Source: Phycisphaerales bacterium
GTDB taxonomy: Bacteria; Planctomycetota; Phycisphaerae; Phycisphaerales; UBA1924
DNA: 64,000 nucleotides
NCBI GenBank assembly: GCA_040221175.1
Contig: JAVJVK010000001.1
Coordinates: forward strand, 186,001-250,000
Direction of reading: 5' to 3'
Part shown: one piece after another, positions 9,046 to 57,848 of the stretch
Numbering within the stretch: the stretch's first letter is position 1
Layout: every line of letters begins with the position of its first letter
Notes under the pieces: model-generated
What the model saw: only the letters and a program-made list of their open reading frames with translations
Databases searched by the model: none
What the model was told of the DNA's origin: nothing
Program-made: the position numbers and the translations under genes

Positions 9046-9068
9046 GGGCGAGGGTAGGGGGGCTTCCT

Positions 9069-9202
9069 TGACGCCTCGCCGGCGAGGCCTTGCGCCTAGG
9101 CATGCGCCCTGCGCCCGAAGACGGGCTGGTGCGGATGCCCCGTCGCGGGCTGGCTTGACGCTTTGCCGGCGGGGGGTGAACGTGTCGCCTCGCCGGCGGG
9201 GC
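9069..9202. repeat. Three copies of a 20-bp GC-rich motif in the glycosyltransferase leader
   Basis: A motif close to TGACGCCTCGCCGGCGAGGC occurs at 9069-9088, 9156-9175 and 9183-9202. The first copy contains a perfect 16-base palindrome (9073-9088); the other two are degenerate. They lie just upstream of the first glycosyltransferase gene, so they could be operator sites or leader hairpins. No protein is supported here. Confidence 0.5.
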
Positions 9203-9387
9203 CGCGCCCTTCGGGCGTGCGCTCGCGGGGCGAGCGTGTTTCGATGCGGAAGAGCCGGGGCCCCAACGTGCAACGGGCCACCGTTGGCTGCATCCCCATG
9301 CACGCCCGGCGACTTCCGTTGCGTCGATTGGTTGTCGAGCCGCGGGCGGGGGTGTTGGGCTGGTCCGGTGTTGGCCGGGGGCCGGTT

Positions 9388-9480
9388 GTGCCGCCTGTGC
9401 CTTGTGTATCGAATGGATCGGGACGCGACTTCAGTTGGTGGAGCGAAAAAAGTGAGAATCGCGACAAATCGGCCGCGGGG
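9388..9480. repeat. Dispersed 93-bp element, copy A
   Basis: This block aligns without gaps to 18524-18616. By hand count, 54 of 70 bases from TGTATCGA onward are identical, and the preceding GTGCCGCC sits at the same 17-base offset in both. On the minus strand both copies keep CTGAAG, 18 bases, then GATACA, which could be a sigma-70-type promoter reading toward the minus-strand genes below each copy. They also share an A/T-rich tract unusual for this genome. In copy A the element lies next to the 21-bp array at 9533-9769. Confidence 0.7.
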
Positions 9481-9532
9481 CGTGCTTGCGGCGAGCAGGG
9501 CGCGGCTCGCTGGCCGCCGGAAGCGGCCGACG

Positions 9533-9769
9533 ACCGCTCGGAAACAACTTTCGACTGCCCGGGAACGACTCCCGACCGCCCGGAAGTGGTTCCCCAGGGC
9601 ACGAGAATGATTCCCGAGGCCGCAGGGACGATTCCCGACCGCCCGGAAATGGCTCCCGAGGGCTCGGAAACGGTTCCGGAGGCCACGGAAACGATTTTCG
9701 TGGCCACGGAAATCATTTCCGACCGGTCGTCAGCCATTTTTCCGCGGGTCCGATCATGTTCGGCTGGCC
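9533..9769. repeat. 21-bp-period inverted-repeat array with conserved cap, copy A
   Basis: About ten degenerate 21-bp units run to 9741. Each unit is itself a small inverted repeat of the type CGGAA-n4-TTCCG on the minus strand. The array ends in a 28-bp cap at 9742-9769 that matches 20650-20677 at 25 of 28 positions. Inside the cap, CCGA-ACATGA-TCGG can form a hairpin. The array lies directly 3' of the minus-strand TPR gene, so it may be its 3' untranslated region. There are no unique spacers, so this is not CRISPR. The whole stretch 9046-9770 holds only these repeats and no credible gene. Confidence 0.72.
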
Positions 9770-9770
9770 G

Positions 9771-11060
9771 CTAGGCGATCGTCGTGGTGCTCGTGGGGGC
9801 GGGGTTCTCGGGCCCGGCGGCCGCGGCGCGGCGGCGTTTGATGCGGCGGTCGTGCCAGACGACGAGGGCGATGGGGCTGGCCAGCAGGAACAGGAGCACC
9901 CCGACCGCGACGAGCGCGGCCTGGGCGATCTGGGCGTCGTGGCCGCCCAGGCCGAAGAAGCCGTCGGGCAGCGCGGGCATGCTGCTGGGCTCGACCCAGG
10001 CGGCGAAGAAGTCCGGATGCGTGTCGGGGTGCTGGCCCTGCTCCAATCGGGTCGTGATGTAGGCGGTGCGGGCCTGGTGCCAGGCGTCGGCCTCGGCGCG
10101 GGCTTTCTTATAGAAGGCCTCGACCGGTTCGAGCGTGTTCAGGTGGTAAGGGTGCTCGCCGGCGTCGAAGGTGCTCAGGTCCATGTCCGGGTGCAGCGTG
10201 CCGCCGCCGCTGCCGGCGATCTCCTCGGCCCGCAGCCACGCGAGGTAGGCCAGCGACGAGTCGCGGCGGTCCTGGAGCGCAAGGGCGAGGGCGTGGAAGA
10301 CGTCGAAGCTGTTCCAGCCGTTGCCAAGGGCGACCAGGCCGGCGAAGCCCTCGGGGGCGTCGGCGTATCCGGCGTCGGCAAGGATGTCGTTGTACGAGCG
10401 GCCGTGCCAGCCATCGTCGGGGGTCAGCCCGGCCTCGATAATCGATGTCAGCTCGTAGGGCCACGCGCTCTCAACGTGCGTGGGCTCGAGGATCCACGCC
10501 AGCGCCATGAGCTGGTAGCGTTCGCGGCCGAAGTGGGCGTCGGGATTCAGCTCGATGGCCTGGGCGATCAGGTCGCGGGCGCGCTCGATGTCGGCCATGT
10601 CGGAGCGGTCCGCGCCCGCGGCGATCCAGCGGTGGGCGTGGAAGGTGCCCAAGTTGGCAAGGTAGCGGTACTCGTGTTCGGTCCGTTCCTCGGACGCCGG
10701 GAGCGCATCGAGGGCGGTGCGCTTCTTGGACATCCATTCGATGGCCTCGTCGTGGCGCCCCAATCGGTCGCACGCGACGCCGGCGTCGTCGTAGGCGGCC
10801 AGGTTCTTCGGGTGGTCGGTCGGATCGGCGTCGAGCTCCGTGGCGACGCGCTCGAGGCGCATCTCGTAATAGAGCGGCGGGTAGCGGTCGAAGCGGCCGA
10901 CGATCGTCTCGACCATGCCCGGCGCGCCGGTGGCCTCGGTCCGCAGCGTGTCGCTGTCCCAGAGGCAGCCGTTGGTGCTGGAGCCGCCGACCAGGAAGAG
11001 CGCGGCGGCGGTGGCCAGGGCGAGCAGCGTGGTGAGGCTCGTGCGTGCGGTGGTGGTCAT
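9771..11060 (-). CDS. Membrane-anchored TPR-like protein of unknown function
   Basis: I do not recognise a specific family. The 429-residue product begins with a hydrophobic segment (LTTLLALATAAALFLVGG, about 9-26) that could be a signal anchor. A second membrane segment lies near the C-terminus (AALVAVGVLLFLLASPIALVVW, about 391-412), followed by a basic tail. Between them are helical repeats such as NLAAYDDAGVACDRLGRHDEAIEWMSKK and a stretch IERARDLIAQAIELNPDAHFG typical of TPR units. The mass therefore probably faces the periplasm and mediates protein contacts. It stands alone on the minus strand, with the capped 21-bp array immediately after its stop. Confidence 0.7.
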   Translation of the reverse strand: MTTTARTSLTTLLALATAAALFLVGGSSTNGCLWDSDTLRTEATGAPGMVETIVGRFDRYPPLYYEMRLERVATELDADPTDHPKNLAAYDDAGVACDRLGRHDEAIEWMSKKRTALDALPASEERTEHEYRYLANLGTFHAHRWIAAGADRSDMADIERARDLIAQAIELNPDAHFGRERYQLMALAWILEPTHVESAWPYELTSIIEAGLTPDDGWHGRSYNDILADAGYADAPEGFAGLVALGNGWNSFDVFHALALALQDRRDSSLAYLAWLRAEEIAGSGGGTLHPDMDLSTFDAGEHPYHLNTLEPVEAFYKKARAEADAWHQARTAYITTRLEQGQHPDTHPDFFAAWVEPSSMPALPDGFFGLGGHDAQIAQAALVAVGVLLFLLASPIALVVWHDRRIKRRRAAAAGPENPAPTSTTTIA

Positions 11061-35710: not shown

Positions 35711-37141
35711 TTAGCTCTCGACCTTAAAGGCCTTCAGGGCTCGATCGCGCGCCTCGTGGTGGTCGACGATGCGCTCGGGGTAGCCGGTGTCGTCGAGCAG
35801 GCCCTCGTGCTCCCACGGAGCGTGGATTTCGTCGCCCTTGACGCTTGAGAGTTCGTCGACGAACGTGCGGATGTAGTCGCCATCGGGATCGAACTTCTTG
35901 CTCTGGCTGATGGGGTTGAAGATGCGGAAGTAGGGGGCGGCATCGGTGCCGGTGGCGGCCGACCATTGCCAGCCGCCGTTGTTGCTCGCGAGGTCACCGT
36001 CGACCAAGTGCTGCATGAAGTACTTCTCGCCCCAGCGCCAGTCAATGAGCAGGTCCTTGGAGAGGAACATCGCCACGGCCATGCGCGAGCGGTTGTGCAT
36101 CCAGCCGGTCTGGTTGAGCTGGCGCATGGCGGCATCGACGATGGGGTAGCCGGTCTTGCCCTGGCACCAGGCCGAGAACTGGCCCTTGGCCTCGTCGTCG
36201 TTTCGCCAGTCGATATCGTACTTGGGGTTGAAAGCCCGGTGCTTGCTGACGCGTGGAAAGGCAAGCAGGATCTGGCGATAGAACTCTCGCCAGATGACCT
36301 CGCTCATCCAGTGCACGGCTCCCTTGCTTCCGCCGTCGATCTTGCCGCTGTTGGCCTCCAGCGCGGCCTCGATGCATTGGCGGGGTGAGATGGCGCCGAT
36401 CGCCAGGTACGGGCTGATGGTGCTGGTGCCGTTGATGGCGGGGTAGTCGCGGTCTTCCTTGTAGGGGGTCAGGCGATCCTTGATGAAGCTGCGCAGGCGT
36501 GAAAGGGCGTGGTCCTCGCCGGCTTTCCAGAGGTCGGGTCGGCCGGCATTGGGGTCGAAGTCGCCGAGTTTGTCGGGCACGGCATCGGACGACGACACCA
36601 TCTCGGGCTGCTTCTTGGCAAGGCCCTGGGCCCTGGGCACGTGCCCGTCCTTAAAGTGCTGGTACCACTTGCGTTTGAAGGGCGAGTAGACGGTGTAGGG
36701 CTTGTCTTCCTGCGTGCGCAGCTCGCCAGGAGGGACACAGGTCTGGTCGTGGAAGCTGCGGACGCTCAGGCCGGCCTTGGCGAACGCGGCGGCGACGGCC
36801 GCGTCACGCTTGCGTTCGTTGGCCTCGTACTCCTCGTTGAAGAAGAGCGCGGTGCAGTGGTGCTCCTTGGCGAGCTTCAGCAGGTCTTTCTCAACGCCGT
36901 CAAACGAGTCTCGCTCGATGAACTTGAGTGCGATGTTGCGAGACTTGAGCCCGTCGCTCAGCTCCTCAAGGTTTCGGCGCAAGAAGTCGACCTTCATGTC
37001 ACCCCAGTCGTGCTCGCGCCACTGCTTGGGGCAGATGGTGAAGACCGCGAGCACGCCCTGGGAGGCGGCCGTGCATGCGGCGCTCAGGGCGGTGTTGTCG
37101 CGGGTGCGCAGGTCGGCGCGGAACCACATCATGGGTCGCAT
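35711..37141 (-). CDS. phrB: Class I CPD photolyase
   Basis: This 476-residue deoxyribodipyrimidine photolyase uses FAD and light to split cyclobutane pyrimidine dimers. The N-terminal antenna domain begins MMWFRADLRTRDNTAL, very close to the E. coli enzyme (472 residues). The FAD domain shows MSEVIWREFYRQIL, GKTGYPIVDAAMRQL, TGWMHNRSRMAVAMFL and GGWQWSAATGTDAAPYFRIF, including the aromatic residues used for electron transfer. The start follows ten bases after the stop of the second photolyase gene, so the two form an operon. The pair suggests a habitat with strong light exposure. Confidence 0.94.
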   Translation of the reverse strand: MRPMMWFRADLRTRDNTALSAACTAASQGVLAVFTICPKQWREHDWGDMKVDFLRRNLEELSDGLKSRNIALKFIERDSFDGVEKDLLKLAKEHHCTALFFNEEYEANERKRDAAVAAAFAKAGLSVRSFHDQTCVPPGELRTQEDKPYTVYSPFKRKWYQHFKDGHVPRAQGLAKKQPEMVSSSDAVPDKLGDFDPNAGRPDLWKAGEDHALSRLRSFIKDRLTPYKEDRDYPAINGTSTISPYLAIGAISPRQCIEAALEANSGKIDGGSKGAVHWMSEVIWREFYRQILLAFPRVSKHRAFNPKYDIDWRNDDEAKGQFSAWCQGKTGYPIVDAAMRQLNQTGWMHNRSRMAVAMFLSKDLLIDWRWGEKYFMQHLVDGDLASNNGGWQWSAATGTDAAPYFRIFNPISQSKKFDPDGDYIRTFVDELSSVKGDEIHAPWEHEGLLDDTGYPERIVDHHEARDRALKAFKVES

Positions 37142-38771: not shown

Positions 38772-38868
38772 GTGACGAGCGTACCACGGCGATGGATGTT
38801 CGGGGGTGGCCCGGTCGAGACGGCTGGGGTCTGCCCGTATCGGCCTCGGGAAGGCGATATGCTGGGCC

Positions 38869-39960
38869 ATGGACGCCCACGCACCCGCGGAAAAGCCCGA
38901 ACTGGCCATCTCGGCCTCGCGACACCTGATCGAATGGATGGCTTCGCGGTCGGTGAGCCTCGGCCTGAGCACGTATCAAGCGGGCAAGCTCTTCCTCGTC
39001 GGCGTGCAGCCCAACGGCCGGCTGAGCGTGTACGAGCGGACGTTCAACCGCTGCATGGGCCTACACGCCTCGGCCGATGGGCAGACGCTGTGGATGGCCT
39101 CGCTCTACCAACTCTGGCGGCTTGAGAACTACGTGCCCAAGGGGCAGGCGACGCCTGATGGCTACGACGCTCTCTACGTGCCGACGATGGGCTACACGAC
39201 CGGCGACGTGGACGTGCACGACATCGTGGTGCCGAAGGGCAAGCCGCCGGTGTTCTGTGTCACGGCGTTTAATTGCCTTGCGACGGTGAGCCAGACGCAC
39301 AGCTTCAAGCCGGTGTGGACGCCTCCGTTCATCAGTGCACCGCTTGAGGCGCCGGTGGGCGAGGACCGCTGCCACCTGAATGGCCTAGCGTCCGATCCTT
39401 CAACCGGCGAGCCCCTTTACGCCACGGCGGTCAGCAGGAGCGACGTGGCCGACGGCTGGAGGGATCGGCGGCACGGCGGGGGCGTGCTGATCGACGTGCG
39501 CACCAGCGAGATCGTGGCCGAGGGGCTGAGCATGCCGCACTCGCCGCGCATGCACCCGGACTACCCGGGCCGGGTGTGGCTGGTGAACGCGGGCACGGGG
39601 TTCTTCGGCTACGTCGACCTGGAGCGAGGGTCGTTCGAGGAGGTTGCCTTCTGCCCTGGGTTCGCGCGCGGGCTGACGTTCGAGGGCCAGCACGCCGTCG
39701 TCGGCCTCTCGGCCGCACGCGAGAACCGGACGTTCGAGGGCCTGCCATTGCAGGACAACCTGAAGGCCAAGGACGCCGAGGCCCGGTGCGCGTTGCACGT
39801 GATCAACCTGGAGACCGGCACGACCGATCACTGGCTGCGGCTGGAGGGCGTGGTGCGCGAGCTGTACGACGCCATCGTGCTGCCCGGCGTGCGGCGGCCG
39901 ATGCTGCTTGGCTTCAAGACCGACGAGATCCGGCGGATGCTGCGGATCGAGGAGCCCTGA
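38869..39960 (+). CDS. TIGR03032-like beta-propeller family protein
   Basis: This 363-residue protein resembles the TIGR03032 family of unknown function, recognised from TYQAGKLFLVGVQPNGRLSV, GLHASADGQTLWMASLYQLWRLEN, DVDVHDIV, HLNGLASDPSTGEPLYATA and SMPHSPRMHPDYPGRVWLVNAG. The repeated His and Trp motifs suggest a propeller-type fold with a metal or sugar site. No signal peptide is seen. In other bacteria members have been found beside glycan or sulfotransferase genes, which I do not see here. The ATG at 38869 lies only six bases after a TATGCT that could be a -10, giving a very short leader. Confidence 0.8.
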   Translation: MDAHAPAEKPELAISASRHLIEWMASRSVSLGLSTYQAGKLFLVGVQPNGRLSVYERTFNRCMGLHASADGQTLWMASLYQLWRLENYVPKGQATPDGYDALYVPTMGYTTGDVDVHDIVVPKGKPPVFCVTAFNCLATVSQTHSFKPVWTPPFISAPLEAPVGEDRCHLNGLASDPSTGEPLYATAVSRSDVADGWRDRRHGGGVLIDVRTSEIVAEGLSMPHSPRMHPDYPGRVWLVNAGTGFFGYVDLERGSFEEVAFCPGFARGLTFEGQHAVVGLSAARENRTFEGLPLQDNLKAKDAEARCALHVINLETGTTDHWLRLEGVVRELYDAIVLPGVRRPMLLGFKTDEIRRMLRIEEP

Positions 39961-39961
39961 G

Positions 39962-40141
39962 TTAGCAACCCGCGTCGAACTCGTTCTGGAAGGCCAGGAA
40001 GTCGAAGATCGTGAGTGAGCCGTCCTCGTCGAAGTCGGCGGCCAGATCGCCGGCATCGAAGGCATTCTGGAATGCGAGGAAGTCGAAGATGGTCAATTCC
40101 CCGTCGCCGTCGAAGTCGGCCCGGCAGTCGCCCACGGGGCC
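39962..40141 (-). pseudogene. Dockerin module separated from its protein by one in-frame UGA
   Basis: After the TGA at 40142-40144 the same frame continues for 59 codons to TAA at 39962. It encodes GPVGDCRADFDGDGELTIFD, a complete second loop DFDEDGSLTIFDFL, and the terminal FDAGC. This is an intact GC-type dockerin with no other stop or frameshift. It has no start codon or ribosome site of its own. Either a recent nonsense mutation detached it, or the UGA is read through, or the base call is wrong. The second Ca loop carries Glu instead of the usual Gly. Confidence 0.85.
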
Positions 40142-41359
40142 TCAGAACGCTCGGATGTCTGACCCGACACCGGCGATCACCAGCGTCCCGTCGGCGCCGA
40201 TGGCAGGGCCGCCGATGTTGACGTTGCGAACGGGCACGCTCCAGCGCTCCTGCAGATCGGCGGAGAAGCTGAACACGCGGCCGGTGGCGAACTCGCCATT
40301 GACGACGTAGAGGTTGCCGTCGCGATCGCTGGCCATGCGGGCTCCGCCCGCGCCGCCGTCCAGGGGCGGGCTGGTGCTCAGCACATCGCCGGTGGCCGGG
40401 TCGAGCCGCATGATGGCGTAATCGCGATCGATGGCGTACACGCTGCCGTCGGGGCCAATCGTGAATTCGCTGGAGGTCGTCCAGCCCGCCTCGACGCTCC
40501 AGCGGATGGAGATGTCGCTGCCGTTGTCGTCCAGGGCGTAGAAGAAGTCGACGGTGGGGTTGTTCTGCGTGCGCTGGACGTAGATCGTGCCGTCGGGGCC
40601 GATCATGGGCGTGGTCTGGATCGTAAAGCCGGGCATCAGTTCGCTCTCGACCTCGAAGGCGCCGGTGGCCAGGTCGAACCGCTTGACGCGGTGCCCGCCG
40701 GGCGCGGCGTCGATGACGTAGACCTTGCCGTTATAGATCGCTCCGCCGCAGGTGCCGCTGACCGAGCAGGAGCGGTCGGCGGACCACACGAGCGCGCCGG
40801 TTTCGGCGTCGAAGCGCTTGATGGTCCGGAAGTCGGCGGCGATCAGGTCGCCATCGCCGGCGAACACCGCGCCGTCGTAGAAGCCGATGGTGGTTTCTTC
40901 GGCCGAGACCCAGAACGTGTCGCCGGTCTCGGCGTCGAGCGCGTAGACCGGGGCCGAGACGCTCGAGCCATTGCCGGCGCGCGTGGCGAACACGCGTCCG
41001 TCCATGACGCCCAGCACGCTGGTGGTCCAGTGGTCCGGGTCGGCGGGGATGTGGCGAAACCAGAGTTCGTCGCCCGTGTCCAGGTCCATCGCGACGACCG
41101 GGCTGCGGTCGCTCTCGGGCGGGAAGGCCGCCTGGCGGACTATGAACACGCGGCGTCCCTCGATCACCGGCTGCCAGGCGATGAGGCTCGTTCGGCCGCC
41201 TTCCCACAGGATATCGGGTGAGGACGGACCAGCTTCCGAGGTCTGGCCGTTCCGCTGGGCGTTGCCGCCCGAGTTGGACCAGTCCTGGGCGAGGGCGGGC
41301 ATCGCCAGGCCGGAGGCCACCGTGATCGACAAGGGCGCAAGGATAACTCGGGGCATCAT
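40142..41359 (-). CDS. Secreted PQQ/WD-like beta-propeller protein
   Basis: The 405-residue product has a signal peptide (VILAPLSITVASGLAMPALA) and then repeats of about 45-50 residues with the pattern YALDAETGDTFWVSAE, KRFDAETGALVWSADR, MRLDPATGDVLSTSPP, typical of PQQ-like quinoprotein propellers. No catalytic residues are evident; such proteins often serve as binding scaffolds (BamB-like) or dehydrogenases. A strong GGAGGAGATC site precedes the ATG pair at 41359. The frame ends in TGA directly before an in-frame dockerin, so the full-length ancestor had 465 residues. The gene is divergent from the transglutaminase-like gene. Confidence 0.83.
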   Translation of the reverse strand: MMPRVILAPLSITVASGLAMPALAQDWSNSGGNAQRNGQTSEAGPSSPDILWEGGRTSLIAWQPVIEGRRVFIVRQAAFPPESDRSPVVAMDLDTGDELWFRHIPADPDHWTTSVLGVMDGRVFATRAGNGSSVSAPVYALDAETGDTFWVSAEETTIGFYDGAVFAGDGDLIAADFRTIKRFDAETGALVWSADRSCSVSGTCGGAIYNGKVYVIDAAPGGHRVKRFDLATGAFEVESELMPGFTIQTTPMIGPDGTIYVQRTQNNPTVDFFYALDDNGSDISIRWSVEAGWTTSSEFTIGPDGSVYAIDRDYAIMRLDPATGDVLSTSPPLDGGAGGARMASDRDGNLYVVNGEFATGRVFSFSADLQERWSVPVRNVNIGGPAIGADGTLVIAGVGSDIRAF

Positions 41360-43291: not shown

Positions 43292-44554
43292 ATGACCGCG
43301 ACGAGCACCGTGAACAAGACTGCCCGCCCCTTCGACGCCCGCACCGACCAGATCCTGGCCGAATTGGAAAAGGGCGGGCAGTACAAGCACCTCCAGATGC
43401 TCACCGGGCCGATGGGGCCGACGGTGATGCTGCGTGATAGCTCTGGGAAATCCAAAGAAGTCATCTGCATGTGCTCGAACAACTATCTGGGCCTGGCCAA
43501 CCACCCCGAAGTGGTCGAGGCGGGCATCGAGGGGCTGCGGAAGTACGGCGCGGGCACGGCGTCGGTCCGCTTCATCTGCGGCACGTTCAATTGCCACGAG
43601 ACGATCGAGAACACGATCGCGAAGTACATGGGGACCGAAAGCAGCTACACCTTCGTGAGCTGCTGGACGGCCAACGAGGCGCTCTACCCCACGTTCGCCG
43701 AGCCGGGCGACATGCTGCTGTCCGACGAGCTCAACCACGCGTGCATCATCGATGGCATCCGCCTGGCCGCGGTCATCAAGAAGGGCGTCCATAAGGGCGT
43801 CTACAAGCACAACGACCTGGACAGCCTGCGCGAGAAGCTCGAAGCGGCGCGGAGCAACCCCGACGTCACCGGCCAGATCTGGGTCGTCACCGACGGCGTG
43901 TTCAGCATGGAGGGCGACATCGCTGATCTGCCGGCGCTGCGGAAGCTCTGCGACGAGTTCGACGCGATGCTGGTGGTCGACGACAGCCACGCCCACGGCG
44001 TCATGGGCGCGACCGGCCGCGGCACCCACGAGCACTTCAACATGTGCCCCGGCGCGGATGGGCACGATGCGAGCCTGGGCGAGGTCGACTTCTTCACCGG
44101 CACGCTGGGCAAGGGCCTGGGCGGCGGCGCGGGCGGCTTCATCGCCGGCAGCAAGCGCGGCACGGAGCTCATCGTCCAGCGCGGCCGGCCGACGCTGTTC
44201 AGCAACGCCCTGCCCTGCACGATCGCGTGCAGCGCGAACAAGGCCATCGAGATCGTGCTGCGCGAGCCGGAGAGAGTGCAGGCCCTGCGCGACATCACCG
44301 CCTACGCGCGACAGCAGATCGGCGGCGCGGGCTTCGAGGTCATCGACTCGCCCACGGCCATCTGCCCGATCATCGTGGGCGAGACGAGCAAGGCCATCGC
44401 CATGAGCAAAAAGCTCCTGGAACTGGGCGTCTTCGTGATCGGCTTTGGCTACCCCGTCGTGCCCGAGGGCGCGGCCCGGCTGCGGCTGCAGTTGTCGGCG
44501 GCGCACACGAAGGGGCACGTGGACCAGGTCGTCGACGCGCTCAAGAAGCTCTAG
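43292..44554 (+). CDS. kbl: Glycine C-acetyltransferase / alpha-oxoamine synthase
   Basis: This 420-residue PLP enzyme of the alpha-oxoamine synthase family is most like 2-amino-3-ketobutyrate CoA ligase, which cleaves the threonine-derived ketoacid to glycine and acetyl-CoA. Hallmarks are CSNNYLGLANHPEV, YGAGTASVRFICGTF, LVVDDSHAHGVMGATGRGT and the PLP Lys in TGTLGKGLGGGAGG. The other family reactions (8-amino-7-oxononanoate, 5-aminolevulinate or serine palmitoyl synthesis) are less likely from the RFICGTFNCHE signature. A GAGGAG ribosome site supports the start. No threonine dehydrogenase gene is nearby. The stop is one base from the stop of the convergent gene. Confidence 0.87.
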   Translation: MTATSTVNKTARPFDARTDQILAELEKGGQYKHLQMLTGPMGPTVMLRDSSGKSKEVICMCSNNYLGLANHPEVVEAGIEGLRKYGAGTASVRFICGTFNCHETIENTIAKYMGTESSYTFVSCWTANEALYPTFAEPGDMLLSDELNHACIIDGIRLAAVIKKGVHKGVYKHNDLDSLREKLEAARSNPDVTGQIWVVTDGVFSMEGDIADLPALRKLCDEFDAMLVVDDSHAHGVMGATGRGTHEHFNMCPGADGHDASLGEVDFFTGTLGKGLGGGAGGFIAGSKRGTELIVQRGRPTLFSNALPCTIACSANKAIEIVLREPERVQALRDITAYARQQIGGAGFEVIDSPTAICPIIVGETSKAIAMSKKLLELGVFVIGFGYPVVPEGAARLRLQLSAAHTKGHVDQVVDALKKL

Positions 44555-49541: not shown

Positions 49542-50852
49542 TCAGCAGCCCGCGTCGAAGCGGTTCTGGAAGGCCAGCAGGTCGAAGATGGTCAGGATGC
49601 TGTCGCCGTCGAAGTCGGCGATCATGTCGCCCGTGTCGAAGGCGTCCTGGAACGCCAGGAAGTCGAAGACGGTCAGCGCGCCGTCGCCGTCGAAGTCGGC
49701 CGGGCAGTCGCAGCGGTTGAGCAGCACGCCGACGCTGCGGCTCCGGACATTGGTCACGGCCAGATCGGGGTCGCCGTCGCCGTCCAGATCATCGACCGCG
49801 GCGGATCCGGTCCAGCCCCCCGCGTCGTAGGCCACGCCTCGATCGAAGACGCCGCCGCCGTCGTTCAGCAGCGCGGTGACGCCCGGCCCAAGGCTCAGAT
49901 CGCTGTTCGTCACGAGCAGATCGTTGTCGCCGTCGCGGTCCAGATCGGCGATCGCCACGGACCGCGACTCCATGCGCGGGCCGTACGAGACGGCGGGCGC
50001 GAACGTGCCGTCGCCGTTGTTGAGCAGCACCATGGTGCCGTCCCCGGAGGTATTGGCCGCGGCAAGGTCGGCGTCACCGTCGCCATCGAGGTCGCCCATC
50101 GCCAGGCCAAGGGGCTCATGGCCCGCAAAATAGTTCACGGGGGACGCGAGGGTGCCGTCCCCCCGGTTCAGCAGCACGCTCACGCTGTCGAAGAGGCGGG
50201 TCCGGTTGGCCACCGCCACGTCGGCGTCGCCGTCGCCATCCAGGTCGCCGATGCAGACCGATACGGGGCCCTGTTCCACGATGTACCGCACCTCGGGCGC
50301 GAAGGTGGCGTCCCCGTTGTTCATCAGGATGCTGATGTCGTCCCTCCGCGCGTTCGTCACGACCAGGTCGCCGTCGCCATCGCCGTCCAGGTCGCCGATC
50401 GCGACGGAATAGGCCCATTCGCCCGCGTCGTAGAGCACGGCGTCCGCGAACGCGCCGTCGCCGTCGTTGAGCAGCACGGCCACGGCGCTCAGCCCCTGGT
50501 CGGCCACGGCCAGGTCATTGTCGCCGTCGCCGTCGAGGTCACCGATCGCCACGGACCGGGGCAGCCCGTGCGGGCCGTAGCGCACCTCGGTCGCGAAGCC
50601 GCCATCGCCGTCGTTGAGCAGCACGCTGACGTCCTGGCTCACGAAGTTGGCCACGGCCAGGTCGGCGAGGCCGTCGCCGTTGAGGTCGCCCGTCGCCACC
50701 GAGACCGGTTCGGATCCCACCCCGTACGCCGCCTGGGGCGTGAAGATCTGCGTGGGACCGCACGCCTGCCCGATCGCGACGGCGGGGACCAGTGTGGTCG
50801 CGGCAATGGCGAGCGTGGTGCGTGCGGCGGTGCTTGTGCGAAGCGACTGCAT
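49542..50852 (-). CDS. Secreted VCBS/FG-GAP repeat protein with C-terminal dockerin
   Basis: This 436-residue exported protein has a signal peptide (TLAIAATTLVPAVAIGQA). Seven or so repeats of about 45 residues follow with the pattern SVAIGDLDGDGDNDLAVAN...VSVLLNDGDG.F, the Ca-binding VCBS/FG-GAP blades of an integrin-like beta-propeller. The GC-type dockerin occupies the last 55 residues (DCPADFDGDGALTVFDFL ... DFDGDSILTIFDLL), ending FDAGC, with one atypical second loop (GDS). A GGAGGA site precedes the ATG. It is the last gene of a five-gene minus-strand dockerin block. Confidence 0.88.
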   Translation of the reverse strand: MQSLRTSTAARTTLAIAATTLVPAVAIGQACGPTQIFTPQAAYGVGSEPVSVATGDLNGDGLADLAVANFVSQDVSVLLNDGDGGFATEVRYGPHGLPRSVAIGDLDGDGDNDLAVADQGLSAVAVLLNDGDGAFADAVLYDAGEWAYSVAIGDLDGDGDGDLVVTNARRDDISILMNNGDATFAPEVRYIVEQGPVSVCIGDLDGDGDADVAVANRTRLFDSVSVLLNRGDGTLASPVNYFAGHEPLGLAMGDLDGDGDADLAAANTSGDGTMVLLNNGDGTFAPAVSYGPRMESRSVAIADLDRDGDNDLLVTNSDLSLGPGVTALLNDGGGVFDRGVAYDAGGWTGSAAVDDLDGDGDPDLAVTNVRSRSVGVLLNRCDCPADFDGDGALTVFDFLAFQDAFDTGDMIADFDGDSILTIFDLLAFQNRFDAGC

Positions 50853-50993
50853 GGCATGGTCCTCCCCGGAATTCGGCGTGGGACACCGCGTCCCCGCATC
50901 AGCGTTGTAACGCCTCGGGAGCGGCCGGTTGCGGCAGGGGGCTCTCCTCTGGCTTCGGGCGGCTCTGGGCTTCTGCTGGCCGCCCGGTCTACC

Positions 50994-51068
50994 AAAAACG
51001 CGGGCGGACGGCCAACGCTTTCTTCCAGCGTCACCGGCGGGGCGTCGACCCCTGGCCGGTCCGCCCGC
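50994..51068 (-). terminator. Large branched hairpin with T-run, probable terminator
   Basis: On the minus strand GCGGGCGGACCGGCCA at 51068-51053 pairs with TGGCCGTCCGCCCGC at 51014-51000 with one bulged base, and GTTTTTGG follows. The 38-base internal region holds its own ACGCT/AGCGT hairpin. It lies 66 bases beyond the stop of the gene at 51134-52510. A second small hairpin (GGGGTGC/GCACCCC) lies between them. Confidence 0.7.
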
Positions 51069-51133
51069 TTGAGATCAGCGTCGCGGCCGGCGGGGGTGCT
51101 GGCGCGGCACCCCTCCCCCGAACCGCCAGCGTC

Positions 51134-52510
51134 CTAGCACCCGGCGTCGAACGCGTTCTGGAAGGCCAGGAAGTCAAACAGGGTCAGGCTGCCGTCGCCG
51201 TCGAAGTCGGCGGCCGGGTCGCCCGCGTCGAAGAGGTTCTGGAAGGCAAGGAAATCAAAGATCGTCGGTTCGCCATCGCCGTCCAGGTCGGCGCGGCACG
51301 CGGCGGCGTAGAGGTACGCCGAGCCCGCGCGGTCGCCGGCGACCTCGGCCTGGGGGGCGCCGACGGCCAGGTCGCGGCCGGTGAGGTCCAGGCTCGTGCC
51401 GAAGCCGGCCGCGAAGCTTGGCGCATCGGCGGCGATGGCGCCCGTGGCCGCGCCCGTGGCGGCGTCGTAGACGTACACGATGCCGGAGTTGGGCGCGCCC
51501 CCGTCGTGGTTCGGTGCGCCCACGAGCACGGCGGCGCCATCGGTGGCGACCGACAGCCCGAAGTTGCCCAGCACGCCCGCGTCGGGCTCGCCCAGCACGG
51601 CGACCTCCTGCGGGTTGGCGGGATCGCTGATATCGAAGATGTACGCCGCGCCCGCGCCGCTGACCTCCGGCTGGTCGGCGTCGGGCGCGCCCACGACGGC
51701 GACCGTGCCGTGCAGCGCCACGGACTTTCCGAAGAAGTCGAACGGCTCGGCGTCGCTGGCGGTGAGCCTGGCGACCTGCGCGGGCCGCAGCGGGTCGGAC
51801 ACGTCGAAGAGGTAGGCCGCGCCGGCCGAGGGCGCCAGGGCGCTCTCGCGGGGGGCGCCCACGAGCGCGTACCCGCCGTGCAACGCGACGGCGAAGCCAA
51901 AGCCGGCCCCCTGCGAGCCGTCGACGGCGCCCAGCCGGCCGAGCTGCGCGACGGCCCGGGGCACGCCGACGTCCAGCAGGATGGCCGCCCCGGTCGCCGG
52001 GGACACGCCGTCGGCATTGGGTGCGCCTGCGATCGCCAGGTCGCCGTCGGTGTCCAGCGAGAAGCCGAACCGATCGCCGCTGCCCAGACCGACGGGGGCG
52101 TAGGCGTCAAGAAGATTGCCGGTGCCCGGGTCGTACAGGTAGATGGCCCCGCCGCCCGAGCCACCGCCCCACGCCGACACGATCGCCGCGGCGGGCCCCA
52201 TCGCGCAGGCGTCGCCGTAGCGATCGCTGCCCACCAGGCCCGGCTCGCCCAGCGTGCGCACGAGCGTGCCGGTGGCGGCGTCGTAGAGGAACGCCAGCCC
52301 TGCCTCGGGCGCAATGTCGTCGTCGGCCGGCGCGGTGACGAGTACACGGTCGCCCCGCACCGCCACGCCCGACCCGAAGCCGTCGAATGGGGCCGGCTGC
52401 GGCGGCCTGATGCGCTCGACGGGCGTGAACTGGGCCCGAGCGGTGGTGCTGGCCAGCAGGGCCAGGCCGGCGGCTACGAGCAGCACGCGTGCAGGGGAAT
52501 TCGGGGTCAT
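51134..52510 (-). CDS. Secreted FG-GAP repeat protein with C-terminal dockerin
   Basis: This 458-residue exported protein has signal peptide VLLVAAGLALLASTTARAQ. Its repeats are of the FG-GAP type that tracks objects such as GSGVAVRGDRVLVTAPADDD, GFAVALHGGYALVGAPRE, GKSVALHGTVAVVGAPDAD and GLSVATDGAAVLVGAPNHD. These are blades of an integrin alpha-like propeller, distinct from the VCBS type of its neighbours. The dockerin follows YLYAAACRADLDGDGEPTIFD and ends FDAGC. The ATG at 52510 is 27 bases downstream of the -10 of a promoter (52537-52564). A probable terminator follows the gene. Confidence 0.87.
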   Translation of the reverse strand: MTPNSPARVLLVAAGLALLASTTARAQFTPVERIRPPQPAPFDGFGSGVAVRGDRVLVTAPADDDIAPEAGLAFLYDAATGTLVRTLGEPGLVGSDRYGDACAMGPAAAIVSAWGGGSGGGAIYLYDPGTGNLLDAYAPVGLGSGDRFGFSLDTDGDLAIAGAPNADGVSPATGAAILLDVGVPRAVAQLGRLGAVDGSQGAGFGFAVALHGGYALVGAPRESALAPSAGAAYLFDVSDPLRPAQVARLTASDAEPFDFFGKSVALHGTVAVVGAPDADQPEVSGAGAAYIFDISDPANPQEVAVLGEPDAGVLGNFGLSVATDGAAVLVGAPNHDGGAPNSGIVYVYDAATGAATGAIAADAPSFAAGFGTSLDLTGRDLAVGAPQAEVAGDRAGSAYLYAAACRADLDGDGEPTIFDFLAFQNLFDAGDPAADFDGDGSLTLFDFLAFQNAFDAGC

Positions 52511-52536
52511 CGATCCAGGCCCTCTTGTGTGCTGCG

Positions 52537-52564
52537 AGTATACATCATGCTCGCGGGCATGCAA
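52537..52564 (-). promoter_or_regulatory. Putative sigma-70 promoter of the FG-GAP dockerin gene
   Basis: On the minus strand TTGCAT (52564-52559) and TATACT (52542-52537) are 16 bases apart. The region is A/T-rich for this genome, and the ATG at 52510 follows 27 bases after the -10. Confidence 0.65.
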
Positions 52565-52587
52565 TACGGTTCCCGGACTCGGCCGCC

Positions 52588-53898
52588 TCAGCACCCCGCG
52601 TCGAAGGCGTTCTGGAAGGCCAGGAAGTCGAAGATCGTCAGCGAGCCGTCGCCGTCGAAGTCGGCGGCCGGGTCGCCGGCGTCGAACAGGTTCTGGAAGC
52701 TCAGGAAGTCGAAGATCGTCAGCTCGCCGTCGCCGTCCAGGTCGGCCTGGCAGGGCGGGGCGCACCGGTTCAGCAGCACGTTCACGGACTGATCGAAGCG
52801 GCTGGCGACGATCAGGTCGGGCCGGCCGTCGCCGTCCATGTCGCCCATCGCCAAGTCCGAGGGGCCCGCGCCCGCGCCGAAGCCCACGGGCGGCTCGTAT
52901 ACCAGCGGGTCGGCCGTTTGGCGCACGGCCATGCGGACCTCGCCCAGGTCGAAGAGGCCGGTGAAGAGCTCGGCCACGCCATCGCCGTTCGCGTCCGCGG
53001 CCAGCACCGATCGCAGGCTCGAGCCGTCGCCGGCGGTCCACCGCTCCCCGAACTGCACCAGCTCGCCCCCCTGCCATGCGAAGGTCCACAGCCGCGAGCG
53101 ATCGCTGACGTCCGAGTAAGCGCCGATCACCACGTCGTCGCGTCCATCGCTATCGACGTCGGCGATGGTCACCGCGTGGGTCTCGTTCGCGAAGCGGCGC
53201 GGCGTGACCAAGTCGAACGTGCCGTCGCCGCGACCGAGGAGCAGCACGTCGTCCTTGCCCACCGGGCGGCGGACTTCCTTGGTCACGTAGACGTCGGTGT
53301 GGCCATCGTGGTTGATGTCGCCCACGGCCAGGTCGGTCCACGCGATGTCGGTGAAGCCGTCGAAGGTCTGCGAGGTGACCAGCCCGCCCGCGCCGTCGTT
53401 GAGCAGCACGGCGATCGTGTCGTCGCCCCTGCTCGCCGCCACCAGGTCGGGCGACCCATCGTGGTTGAAGTCGGCGATGCCCAGCGGGAGCGGGTCGACG
53501 CCGGTGGTGTAGATGACCGCGGGATCGAAGCGCAGCGCGCCGCGGTTGATGAGCACCGCCACGCCGAAGGTCGTGCCCGTCACGATGTCGGCCAGGCCGT
53601 CGCCGTTCATGTCGGCGATGGCCATGTCGGCGCCGCGCAGGCCGGGCTCGGGCTCGAAGGCGGGGCCCAGCGTGCCGTCGCCGTTGCCCGGCAGGATGAC
53701 CAGGTGCGAGAAGTACCCCCCGGCCACGACGTCGAGCGCGCCGTCGCCGTCGAGGTCGCCCACGCTTACGTGCCACGGAATCACCACGGGGTGCTCGATG
53801 GGCTCGCCGAAGAGATCTGGCCCCAGGCAGTCCTGGGCGAGGGCGCCGCTCGCCAGCGCGAGCACGATGGATGCGGGGAGCAGTTGCTTGGTGTTCAT
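52588..53898 (-). CDS. Secreted VCBS repeat protein with C-terminal dockerin (paralogue A)
   Basis: This 436-residue exported protein has a signal peptide (LLPASIVLALASGALAQ). VCBS-type repeats such as VSVGDLDGDGALDVVAGG, MAIADMNGDGLADIVTG and LAMGDMDGDGRPDLIVAS form an expected beta-propeller. The C-terminal dockerin follows the conserved linker LLNRCAPPCQADLDGDGELT and ends FDAGC. It is the tandem paralogue of the gene at 53944-55248: the mature starts match (QDCLGPDLFGEP versus QDCTGPDLFAAP), as do the linkers. AAGGAG before the ATG supports the start. No enzymatic motif is seen; adhesion or display is the likely role. Confidence 0.88.
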   Translation of the reverse strand: MNTKQLLPASIVLALASGALAQDCLGPDLFGEPIEHPVVIPWHVSVGDLDGDGALDVVAGGYFSHLVILPGNGDGTLGPAFEPEPGLRGADMAIADMNGDGLADIVTGTTFGVAVLINRGALRFDPAVIYTTGVDPLPLGIADFNHDGSPDLVAASRGDDTIAVLLNDGAGGLVTSQTFDGFTDIAWTDLAVGDINHDGHTDVYVTKEVRRPVGKDDVLLLGRGDGTFDLVTPRRFANETHAVTIADVDSDGRDDVVIGAYSDVSDRSRLWTFAWQGGELVQFGERWTAGDGSSLRSVLAADANGDGVAELFTGLFDLGEVRMAVRQTADPLVYEPPVGFGAGAGPSDLAMGDMDGDGRPDLIVASRFDQSVNVLLNRCAPPCQADLDGDGELTIFDFLSFQNLFDAGDPAADFDGDGSLTIFDFLAFQNAFDAGC

Positions 53899-53943
53899 TG
53901 CGGAGTCTCCTTTGGGTCTGGTCCGAAGTTCGTTTTCTTGTGC

Positions 53944-55248
53944 TTAGCAGCCGGCGTCGAATGCGTTCTGGAACGCCAGGAAGTCGAAGATGGTCAGTGC
54001 GCCTTCGCCGTCGAAGTCGGCGGCGGGATCGCCGGCGTCGAACAGGTTCTGGTAGCTCAGGAAGTCGAAGATCGTGAGTTCGCCGTCGCCGTCCAGGTCG
54101 GCTTGGCAGGGCGGGGCGCACCGATTCAGCAGCACGCCGACGCCGCCGGGAAACCAGTTGGCAACGACCAGGTCGGGCCGGCCGTCGCCGTTCAGGTCGC
54201 CCGAGCCCACGTCCGAGGTGGCCGGGCCTGTGTCCAGCACGATGGGCGCTGCGAACACCAGCGGTGCGGCGCGCAGGCCGGGCAAGACCTGGACCTGGTT
54301 CCTGCCCGGCAGGGCGGCGAACACGTCCACGAGCCCATCGCCGTCGAAATCCGCCGCCGAGGGCGAGCGGGCCGACGCGCCCAGGCCGAGGTTCTGCGCG
54401 GCGAGCAGGCTGCGGAACGACGTGCCATCCCAGGTGTAGAACGCCATGAGCGCCCGGGTCACCGTCGAGTCCTGGACGCGGACGGCCAGCAGCAGGTCGT
54501 TGCGGCCGTCGCCATTCAGGTCGGTGATGCGCACACCATCGGTGAGGCTCCACTCGCCCGGGATGTCCACGGCGTCGAACTGGCCATCGCCCCGGCCGGT
54601 GTAGAACACGTCCTCGAAGGCCATCGGGTCGATCTGCGTCGCGTAGATGTCGGCGTTGCCGTCGTGGTCCAGATCGCCGACGGCGACATCCGAGAGGGCG
54701 ATGTCCGTCTCCAGGACGGTCGCCGTGGCGAGCGCCCCGCCGCCATCGTTCAGGAAGACCGTGATGCGTCCGGAAAAGCCGATGGACACCACGTCGGGCG
54801 CGCCGTCGTTGTTGACGTCGGCGATGTCCAGGGCCACTGGGCTGATTCCCGCGTCGTACAGGGCCGCCGGCTCGAATTGCAGGCCGCCGCGGTTGAGCAG
54901 CACTGCGACCGCGTCGCGCGTGAGCGAGACGATGTCGGGCATGCCATCGCCGTTCATGTCGAAGATCGTCGCGTCGCCGCCGCCCAGGCGCGGCTGGGGC
55001 TCGATGGACGCGCCGAGCGTGCCGTCGCCGTTGCCGGGCAGGATCCACAGGCCCGTGCCGCTGCTGCCCACAACAGCATCGAGCGCGCCGTCACCGTCGA
55101 GGTCGCCCAGATCCAACTCGCGGGCGCCGCCGCCGGCGGCGTAGGCCTCCGGGGCGGCGAACAGGTCGGGGCCGGTGCAGTCTTGCGCTGCGCCAGCGCA
55201 GGCCAGGATCAAGATGGGTGACGAGGTCAGAAGCAATCTGGCGTTCAT
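53944..55248 (-). CDS. Secreted VCBS repeat protein with C-terminal dockerin (paralogue B)
   Basis: This 434-residue tandem paralogue of the preceding entry has signal peptide LLLTSSPILILACAGAAQ. The repeats are LDLGDLDGDGALDAVVGS, IFDMNGDGMPDIVSL, LDIADVNNDGAPDVVSIG and VGSGDLNGDGRPDLVVAN. The dockerin has loops DLDGDGELTIFDFLSYQ and DFDGEGALTIFDFLAFQ; the second carries GEG for GDG. It ends FDAGC. The two copies have diverged in the propeller but are nearly identical across the last 60 residues. A GGAGACC sequence lies before the ATG. A shared 34-bp motif lies about 80-110 bases upstream. Confidence 0.87.
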   Translation of the reverse strand: MNARLLLTSSPILILACAGAAQDCTGPDLFAAPEAYAAGGGARELDLGDLDGDGALDAVVGSSGTGLWILPGNGDGTLGASIEPQPRLGGGDATIFDMNGDGMPDIVSLTRDAVAVLLNRGGLQFEPAALYDAGISPVALDIADVNNDGAPDVVSIGFSGRITVFLNDGGGALATATVLETDIALSDVAVGDLDHDGNADIYATQIDPMAFEDVFYTGRGDGQFDAVDIPGEWSLTDGVRITDLNGDGRNDLLLAVRVQDSTVTRALMAFYTWDGTSFRSLLAAQNLGLGASARSPSAADFDGDGLVDVFAALPGRNQVQVLPGLRAAPLVFAAPIVLDTGPATSDVGSGDLNGDGRPDLVVANWFPGGVGVLLNRCAPPCQADLDGDGELTIFDFLSYQNLFDAGDPAADFDGEGALTIFDFLAFQNAFDAGC

Positions 55249-55324
55249 TTCCAAGGTCTCCGTGCGATCAGGTTCGTCGGTAAGGGCCCCTGCCCACGAG
55301 CGGCGACACACGAGCCACCCGTCC

Positions 55325-55365
55325 CGGAACGCGACGACCGCCGCCGGAACCGGCAACGGTCGTCG
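55325..55365. promoter_or_regulatory. Shared upstream motif with inverted repeat, copy 1
   Basis: CGGAACGCGACGAC ... ACCGGCAACG matches 57185-57218 at most positions. Here it also forms a perfect inverted repeat, CGACGACCG with CGGTCGTCG (55332-55365). Both copies lie 70-110 bases upstream of a minus-strand dockerin gene, which suggests a common regulatory site. Confidence 0.45.
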
Positions 55366-55395
55366 AAAAAAGGGGAGTCCGGCAAGGCTTCGGGT

Positions 55396-57114
55396 TCAGC
55401 AGCCGGCGTCGAAGGCGTTCTGGAAGGCCAGGAAGTCAAACAAGGTCAGGCTGCCATCGCCGTCGAAGTCGGCGGCCGGGTCGCCCGTGTCGAAGAGGTT
55501 CTGGAATTCCAGGAAATCGAAGATGGTCAGGCTGCCGTCGCCGTCGAGGTCGGCACGGCACTGGCACTCGTCAGGGATGTTGTCGAAGTTCAGATCGAGG
55601 CTGTCGCCATTCGCGATGTCCACCAGGTCGTGCACGCCGTTGGCGTTGCAGTCGATGGGGATGACGCCGGTGGACTCGATCGGGCCGCGCGTTTGCAGCT
55701 GCGTGCCCGCCGATCCGCCGGGTGCTCCGCCGCTGCCGGGATCGCCGAGGTCGTAGCTCGCGTCGACGAGGTCGACGGCCGGCCCGGTGACCCAGATCCC
55801 GATGCTCGGCCCACCCGCGCCGCCACCGCCTCGACCGCCGTTGCCGCCTCGACCGCCATTGCCGCCCATGCCGCCGTTGGAGCCGTCGTCCTGCTGGCTG
55901 TCGCCGCCGTAGAAGTTGCCCGCCGTGCATGTGGGCAGGGCACGACCGCCGAGGCCGCCGTCCCCGCCCTGCCCGCCGTTGCCGCCGTTGCCGCCATTCC
56001 CGCCGCCGCCGGTGGCGAAACTCGCACCGTTGATGGCGACGTTCGCCGACGCCGCGACGACCAGGCCGATCGAAGCGCCACCGCCGAGCCCGCCCTGTCC
56101 GCCGCGGCCACCGCCGCCGCCCGAGCCACCGCCCGCGCCGCCGGCGCCGAAGCTGTTGCAGCTCGCGGTGCCACCGCCGCCACCGCCACCGCCACCCCCG
56201 CCAGCGCCGCCCTGGCCGTCGGCGCCCTGCCCGCTGCGCTGCGGCACGTAGAGGCCATCTGCAGCGAGCGAGCCCTCGCCGCCGGCCGGCCCGTTTACGC
56301 CGTTGGATCCGGGAAAGCCGTCGCCGCCGATGGAGTCTCGCCCGCCGAAGAAGAAGGGGCACCAGTTGCCAAGGCCGGGGAAGGTCCCTTCGCCGCCGCG
56401 CCCGCCGCCGGGGCCCTCACCCGCTTCGCCGGGCCTGCCGAAGTCGCCATCGCGTCCCGGTCGCCCTCCGACGCCGCCGGGAAAACCGCCGCCGGTGCCC
56501 GCGACGCCGCCGAGTGGCCACAGGCCACGCGTGCAGAGCGGGATGCTGGTGCCCGGGATGGTCTGATCATCGCTTTCAATGCCTGGCATGCCGAGCCCGC
56601 CGTTGCCGCCGCGGGCGCCGTTCGCGCCGGTCGCCCCGTTCGCGCCGCCCATGGCCGCCTCGGCCACGAACTCGCAGTTGCTGGCAAAGAATTCTTCGAC
56701 ACCATCCAGCACGAGCCCGTATCGGCTGGCGTCCGAGGAACTCGTCATGGTGAAGCGCACGCCGTCTGCGACGATGCCGGTGGTTGCCCGCGTGGGCTCG
56801 CTTGTCCGCACGATGGTCGTGTTCGAGGCGGCGTCGCGGGTCCACCCGCTCGAAGCATCGAAGCCGCCCATGATGGCCCAGCCGCCGAAGAGGGTCGTAT
56901 CGCTGTACTCGCCCGCATCGAGATAGATCACACCCGAGTCGCCCAGCGCTCGCGCCGCGGCCAGCGTGGCGACGGGCATGTCGGCGGTGCCCGGGTTGGC
57001 GTCGTCGCCAAGGGTGGCCGAGACGTAGATGGGAGCTTGGGCGAGTGCATTGGTCGCCGCGAATGCCGTGAGAATGCAGGCAACGGTCCGGGAAGTCTTG
57101 ATGGTCGGGCGCAT
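55396..57114 (-). CDS. Secreted glycine-rich (PGRS-like) protein with C-terminal dockerin
   Basis: This 572-residue exported protein has signal peptide TVACILTAFAATNALAQ. Residues 27-150 resemble the start of a right-handed beta-helix (VSATLGDDANPGTADMPV, then VIYLDAGEYSDTTLFGGW). Residues 150-460 are dominated by Gly-Gly-X repeats (GGNGGNGGNGGQGGDGGLGG), similar in appearance to mycobacterial PE_PGRS sequence and to collagen-like tracts. A dockerin closes the protein after IPDECQCRADLDGDGSLT and ends FDAGC. AGGAG seven bases before the ATG supports the start at 57114. Such tracts are prone to slippage. A structural surface role is likely, but no partner is visible. Confidence 0.86.
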   Translation of the reverse strand: MRPTIKTSRTVACILTAFAATNALAQAPIYVSATLGDDANPGTADMPVATLAAARALGDSGVIYLDAGEYSDTTLFGGWAIMGGFDASSGWTRDAASNTTIVRTSEPTRATTGIVADGVRFTMTSSSDASRYGLVLDGVEEFFASNCEFVAEAAMGGANGATGANGARGGNGGLGMPGIESDDQTIPGTSIPLCTRGLWPLGGVAGTGGGFPGGVGGRPGRDGDFGRPGEAGEGPGGGRGGEGTFPGLGNWCPFFFGGRDSIGGDGFPGSNGVNGPAGGEGSLAADGLYVPQRSGQGADGQGGAGGGGGGGGGGGTASCNSFGAGGAGGGSGGGGGRGGQGGLGGGASIGLVVAASANVAINGASFATGGGGNGGNGGNGGQGGDGGLGGRALPTCTAGNFYGGDSQQDDGSNGGMGGNGGRGGNGGRGGGGAGGPSIGIWVTGPAVDLVDASYDLGDPGSGGAPGGSAGTQLQTRGPIESTGVIPIDCNANGVHDLVDIANGDSLDLNFDNIPDECQCRADLDGDGSLTIFDFLEFQNLFDTGDPAADFDGDGSLTLFDFLAFQNAFDAGC

Positions 57115-57184
57115 GGTCGTGCTCCTGGGGTACGATGTTCGAGATTCGCTCGGTCGGCAGGGCATCCACGCGTGCGCTGCCCAG

Positions 57185-57218
57185 CCGAAACGCGACGACG
57201 GCGGCACAGACCGGCAAC
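57185..57218. promoter_or_regulatory. Shared upstream motif, copy 2
   Basis: CGAAACGCGACGAC ... ACCGGCAACG is the second copy of the motif at 55325. It lies 71-104 bases upstream of the glycine-rich dockerin gene and within the divergent interval to the sigma factor gene. The inverted repeat of copy 1 is not conserved here. Confidence 0.4.
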
Positions 57219-57284
57219 GAAAATCTGAGGAAACTCGACATCGAGCCCAACGCCGACCAACCAGGCCCGGAACGCGAGCCCACG

Positions 57285-57848
57285 ATGCTGCTGCTGGCCG
57301 CGGCGGACGGCGATTCTCGCGCAGCCGAGCAACTTGCGCCCATGGTCTACGACAAACTGCGTCGCCTCGCCGCCGCTCGGCTGGGCGGCGCGGGCCAGGC
57401 CGACTGGACCTGCCAGCCGACCGCCATCGTGCACGAGGCGTACATGCGCATGGCCGATCAGCACAAGGTCGACTGGCAGGGACGCACGCACTTCTTTGCG
57501 ATTGGGGCCGAGATGGTCCGTCGCGTGATCGCCGACGAGGCCAAGCGTCGCGGCCGACGGAAGCGCGGCGGCGGCTGGGGCCGGGTGACGCTCGACGGCG
57601 CGGCGCTCGATGCCAGTTCGGCGGCCATCGACCCGCTCGACCTCGACGACGCCCTTACGAAACTGGCCGACGTCGACGAGCGCGCCGCCCGCGTGGTGTC
57701 GCTGCGTTTCTTTGGCGGGCTGACCGAGCCGGAGATTGCCGCGGTGCTGGACGTCAGCGAACGAACGGTCCGCGGAGACTGGCGCAGCGCGAAGGCGTTC
57801 CTGCGTCGCACGCTGGCCGAAGCGGGTGATGACGATGACGAACGCTGA
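57285..57848 (+). CDS. ECF-type RNA polymerase sigma factor
   Basis: This 187-residue sigma-70 of the extracytoplasmic-function group resembles the planctomycete/acidobacterial type (TIGR02999-like). Region 2 contains LAPMVYDKLRRLAAARLGG, QPTAIVHEAYMRMA and THFFAIGAEMVRRVIADEAKRR. Region 4 is ARVVSLRFFGGLTEPEIAAV followed by LDVSERTVRGDWRSAKAFL. The ATG at 57285 begins the conserved part; an in-frame ATG at 57135 would leave only 20 bases to the divergent gene. The kinase gene starts 20 bases before its stop, so both are made together and the kinase is the likely regulator. No anti-sigma factor is present. Confidence 0.88.
   Translation: MLLLAAADGDSRAAEQLAPMVYDKLRRLAAARLGGAGQADWTCQPTAIVHEAYMRMADQHKVDWQGRTHFFAIGAEMVRRVIADEAKRRGRRKRGGGWGRVTLDGAALDASSAAIDPLDLDDALTKLADVDERAARVVSLRFFGGLTEPEIAAVLDVSERTVRGDWRSAKAFLRRTLAEAGDDDDER

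Follow-up and report, generated by a model that had tools for sequence, protein, structure and literature searches.

A gene for an exported beta-propeller in a Phycisphaerales bacterium is interrupted by an in-frame UGA directly in front of its C-terminal dockerin. Sequence comparison indicates that this stop codon is probably a recent, unprogrammed nonsense allele (estimated probability about 0.7), which would give rise to an exported propeller without dockerin.

The interrupted propeller-dockerin gene

The gene is located on the minus strand of the window, that is, the whole stretch of 64,000 nucleotides that was analyzed, and it is read in a single frame from 41359 to 39962 with the translation M...DIRAF*GPVGDCRADFDGDGELTIFDFLAFQNAFDAGDLAADFDEDGSLTIFDFLAFQNEFDAGC* (Table 1). 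The original prediction had described an in-frame UGA that splits the propeller from the dockerin, and this is what was found at 40144-40142. The 405 residues upstream of the stop carry an N-terminal signal peptide and match PQQ_2/BamB with 54 bits. The prediction of an in-frame tail of 59 codons that keeps both calcium-binding loops and a terminal FDAGC was also borne out: the translated tail contains both D-x-D-x-D-G-x-L-T-I-F-D loops and the FDAGC end, and it matches the NCBIfam model NF041540 "GC-type dockerin" over its full length (model positions 1-67) with 48.3 bits, the curated cut-off being 29 bits. It also lies narrowly above the threshold of Pfam Dockerin_1 (PF00404; 23.5 bits, cut-off 22.9). 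Under the standard code the UGA ends the product 59 codons early, and the translated protein has no C-terminal dockerin. A terminator scan at the 3' end of the gene found none.

Table 1. Positions of the interrupted gene, its neighbors, and two further interrupted genes of the same genome (G000); positions refer to the window unless a locus is named.
Feature	Position	Strand	Remark
Exported beta-propeller (PQQ_2/BamB-like), complete fold, 405 codons	41359-40145	minus	ends at UGA
In-frame TGA (TCA on the plus strand)	40144-40142	minus	between propeller and dockerin
GC-type dockerin, 59 codons, two Ca-binding loops, untranslated if the UGA terminates	40141-39965	minus	profile matches and selection test
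TAA, ancestral stop of the gene	39964-39962	minus	
DUF4915 gene	38806-39960		neighbor
Photolyase gene	35711-37141		neighbor
Aminotransferase gene	43292-44554		neighbor
Second propeller-dockerin gene, in-frame TAG	L039 1610-1612 (G000 contig 7, about 266109-266111)		inside last blade
Third propeller-dockerin (FG-GAP-like) gene, TAA	L073 3984-3986 (G000 contig 4, about 253983-253985)		between the two Ca loops

In an AlphaFold2 model of the protein (mean pLDDT 82) the last propeller strand is formed by residues 402-405, the stop codon is at position 406, and the dockerin helices comprise residues 424-435 and 451-462. Because the last strand ends right before the stop, truncation at the UGA is predicted to spare the whole propeller and to remove the whole dockerin.

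The window contains seven further dockerins, which reside in open frames of 451-1064 amino acids, in agreement with the earlier statement that they are continuous. Five dockerin-bearing genes follow one another on one strand (49542-57654, minus), and the two of them that were tested encode FG-GAP proteins.

Orthologous genes and the age of the stop codon

A search for homologues in 61 genomes revealed orthologues that are 85% identical in the genomes G001 and G003 and 80% identical in G002; further homologues are more distant, and two are also present in metagenome bins of Phycisphaerae/Phycisphaeraceae. Judged from their surroundings, the genes of G001 and G003 are true orthologues, because counterparts of the DUF4915, photolyase, and aminotransferase neighbors flank them and because the interrupted gene is present in a single copy in G000. 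The comparison of orthologues, which the original prediction had proposed as a check, gave a uniform result. Every homologue found is uninterrupted at the site, and all 13 aligned homologues have a sense codon there, which specifies arginine in 11 cases and tyrosine and tryptophan in one case each. The usual sequence is DIRA[F/Y]R, with CGA, CGC, or CGG as arginine codon. At the DNA level the nearest homologue is that of G001 (84% nucleotide identity), and it has CGA at the site; therefore, a single C-to-T transition accounts for the TGA.

The alignment also indicates that the reading frame of the tail is not a chance feature, because the codons after the stop align one by one with those of the intact orthologues. 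An in-frame GTG at codon 3 past the stop might serve as the start of a separate small gene made up of the 59 codons, but this explanation is scarcely credible, given that the dockerin is fused to the propeller in the orthologues, and that the product would have no signal peptide, unlike nearly all other sampled proteins with a GC-type dockerin, which possess an N-terminal hydrophobic segment.

The age of the stop was approached via changes specific to this genome, defined as sites that are identical in G001 and G003 but different in this genome. Upstream of the stop there are 44 synonymous and 18 nonsynonymous changes of this kind, downstream there are seven synonymous and no clearly nonsynonymous ones. 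One flagged change after the stop, at codon 42, is ambiguous, as a serine codon is present here and in two relatives. For a freely drifting tail the probability of seven synonymous changes out of seven is about 2.5e-5 to 2.3e-4, and that of seven out of eight is 1.6e-4 to 1.3e-3. Assuming 2.3-3.5 nonsynonymous changes for each synonymous one under neutrality, some 16-25 nonsynonymous changes would be expected in a tail that had been neutral over the whole branch. The 7:0 pattern points to dockerin codons that were under selection until very recently, the stop having arisen late on the branch, or else to a tail that is still translated or to a wrong base. A nonsense allele is in line with the first possibility; the intactness of the tail is also compatible with ongoing synthesis of some full-length protein.

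If the base is wrong, the TGA is an error of the consensus or assembly, or a minority strain variant, and the cells carry an ordinary arginine codon and a continuous dockerin protein. This option, which the original prediction had named as a sequencing error, is rather unlikely, yet several points are in its favor: TGA is only one base away from CGA, the tail is devoid of decay, and each of the three interruptions known in this genome (see below) could have arisen from a C-to-T or G-to-A change. C-to-T and G-to-A are a common direction of miscalls.

Genetic code, readthrough, and further interrupted genes

The genome uses the standard genetic code. Reassignment of UGA to an amino acid was rejected, since release factor RF2 is present (402 bits), 119 of the 222 confident genes within 464 kb end with TGA, and the tRNA-Trp with CCA anticodon has a full, normal anticodon stem. 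Selenocysteine insertion and suppression by a tRNA were likewise rejected: tRNA-Sec and SelB were sought in the genome and gave no match above the cut-off, the tRNA-Sec-like matches turned out to be tRNAs for Ser, Leu, Cys, Tyr, and Asp, and a UCA anticodon was absent from all 45 typed tRNA matches.

Programmed or leaky readthrough of the UGA, which would produce mostly the free protein and, to a minor extent, the one with its dockerin, had been among the options of the original prediction. The intact and recently constrained frame after the stop would suit it, and UGA is generally the leakiest stop codon (PMC5289835). However, the stop is present in no orthologue, the base at position +4 is G and not the C of the documented leaky bacterial context (PMC5289835), no special RNA structure was found around the stop (its fold is unremarkable compared with shuffled sequences, z = -1.15), and neither a suppressor tRNA nor a selenocysteine tRNA was found. 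In addition, the sister dockerin genes are interrupted by UAG and UAA. This option thus found no support and is very improbable.

In the first of the sister genes, on contig 7, the in-frame TAG is followed by the remaining part of the blade and then by a dockerin that is intact. In the second, on contig 4, most homologues have glutamine at the position of the TAA. Three different stop codons at three different positions in three genes speak against a release device that is tied to UGA or to a fixed position. A broader version, in which leaky termination at UGA, UAG, and UAA of the three genes yields mixtures of free and dockerin-bearing propellers, so that display is tuned by weak nonsense alleles, is highly speculative.

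Interruptions were also sought by a scan based on codon usage, which covered the window and 20 sampled stretches (464 kb, 347 called genes; a dockerin-rich sample that does not include the TAG of contig 7). It revealed two in-frame interruptions, those of the window gene and of the contig 4 gene, both in dockerin genes and near the 3' end; the remaining same-frame neighbors were, read by eye, ordinary adjacent genes. An excess of UGA-interrupted genes was not observed in the 464 kb, and the other interrupted dockerin genes have UAG and UAA. Random errors would be expected along whole genes, whereas both interruptions in the 464 kb lie in the last 85 or so codons of dockerin genes, which constitute about 4% of the coding codons. 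This positional argument carries little weight against an error, since dockerin-rich stretches had been selected for the sample and the window case was known beforehand; with this proviso, the clustering at 3' ends fits tolerance of tail loss better than random errors.

Among the dockerins listed for this genome only two have an open frame below 100 amino acids, namely the window case with 59 and a contig 7 dockerin with 85. Two of 150 here compared to none of 152 listed in three well-assembled relatives is not a significant difference (P = 0.25). An open frame on contig 7 (L081 8725-10314) resembled a fourth nonsense case in that a signal peptide is missing from its frame, but it was rejected as such, because a signal-bearing start is found in another frame, which indicates a frameshift or indel. 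The respective dockerin protein (L081, about 8488-10314) thus has a start out of frame with its dockerin, likely due to a frameshift, either real or from assembly.

Probable loss of the dockerin and its meaning

The preferred explanation, a recent nonsense allele, implies the following course of events. The TGA, presumably a real base in the cells, would have arisen by a C-to-T transition that converted the conserved arginine codon CGA between propeller and dockerin. Translation would terminate there, most likely by RF2 and presumably with high efficiency, and the product would be a Sec-exported, fully folded beta-propeller of 405 residues without dockerin. Devoid of the tag, it could probably not reach the place to which GC-type dockerins take their proteins and might be mislocalized. 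The orphaned dockerin codons would be relics that have not yet decayed, consistent with a recent and unprogrammed change.

The original prediction had also envisaged that a recent nonsense mutation releases the protein from its anchor. Of the three options offered, the mutation itself fits best, given the CGA-to-TGA change at a conserved arginine, the intact orthologues, and the selection on the tail until very recently. Release from an anchor is only an assumption, because no Pfam cohesin is found in this genome. Of 224 candidates 150 were scored, and the genome accordingly encodes 150 or more GC-type dockerins, versus no match to the cohesin family PF00963 at E <= 0.001. A literature search for "GC-type dockerin" retrieved no paper. 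For other planctomycetes a cohesin-dockerin complex, the "planctosome", has been hypothesized (PMC6461901). The dockerin proteins described here resemble it in being non-cellulosomal and planctomycetal, but the missing Pfam cohesin sets them apart from a planctosome or cellulosome-type cohesin-dockerin system.

The gene resembles those of other proteins of the NF041540 type in that it encodes an exported protein and a C-terminal domain with tandem calcium loops that ends with Gly-Cys; unlike in those proteins, an in-frame UGA cuts the domain off. With UGA recoding by selenocysteine insertion or programmed readthrough it shares an in-frame UGA that has a conserved coding frame behind it; in the window gene, however, the stop is not conserved, and Sec machinery above the cut-off, a suppressor tRNA, and notable downstream structure are all lacking. 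The closest resemblance is to bacterial nonsense alleles and truncating pseudogenes, with which it shares a single transition, species specificity, intact orthologues, and a remnant in frame. It differs from them in that the main domain is complete and the C-terminal tag alone is lost.

The window gene is thus an ordinary recent truncating allele that matters little by itself. Automatic annotation would list a propeller without dockerin and overlook the remnant of 59 codons. Provided that the base is real, this natural allele, which is distinguished from those of its relatives mainly by the absence of the tag, could be used in these bacteria, in whose genome no Pfam cohesin was detected, to probe the role of GC-type dockerins.
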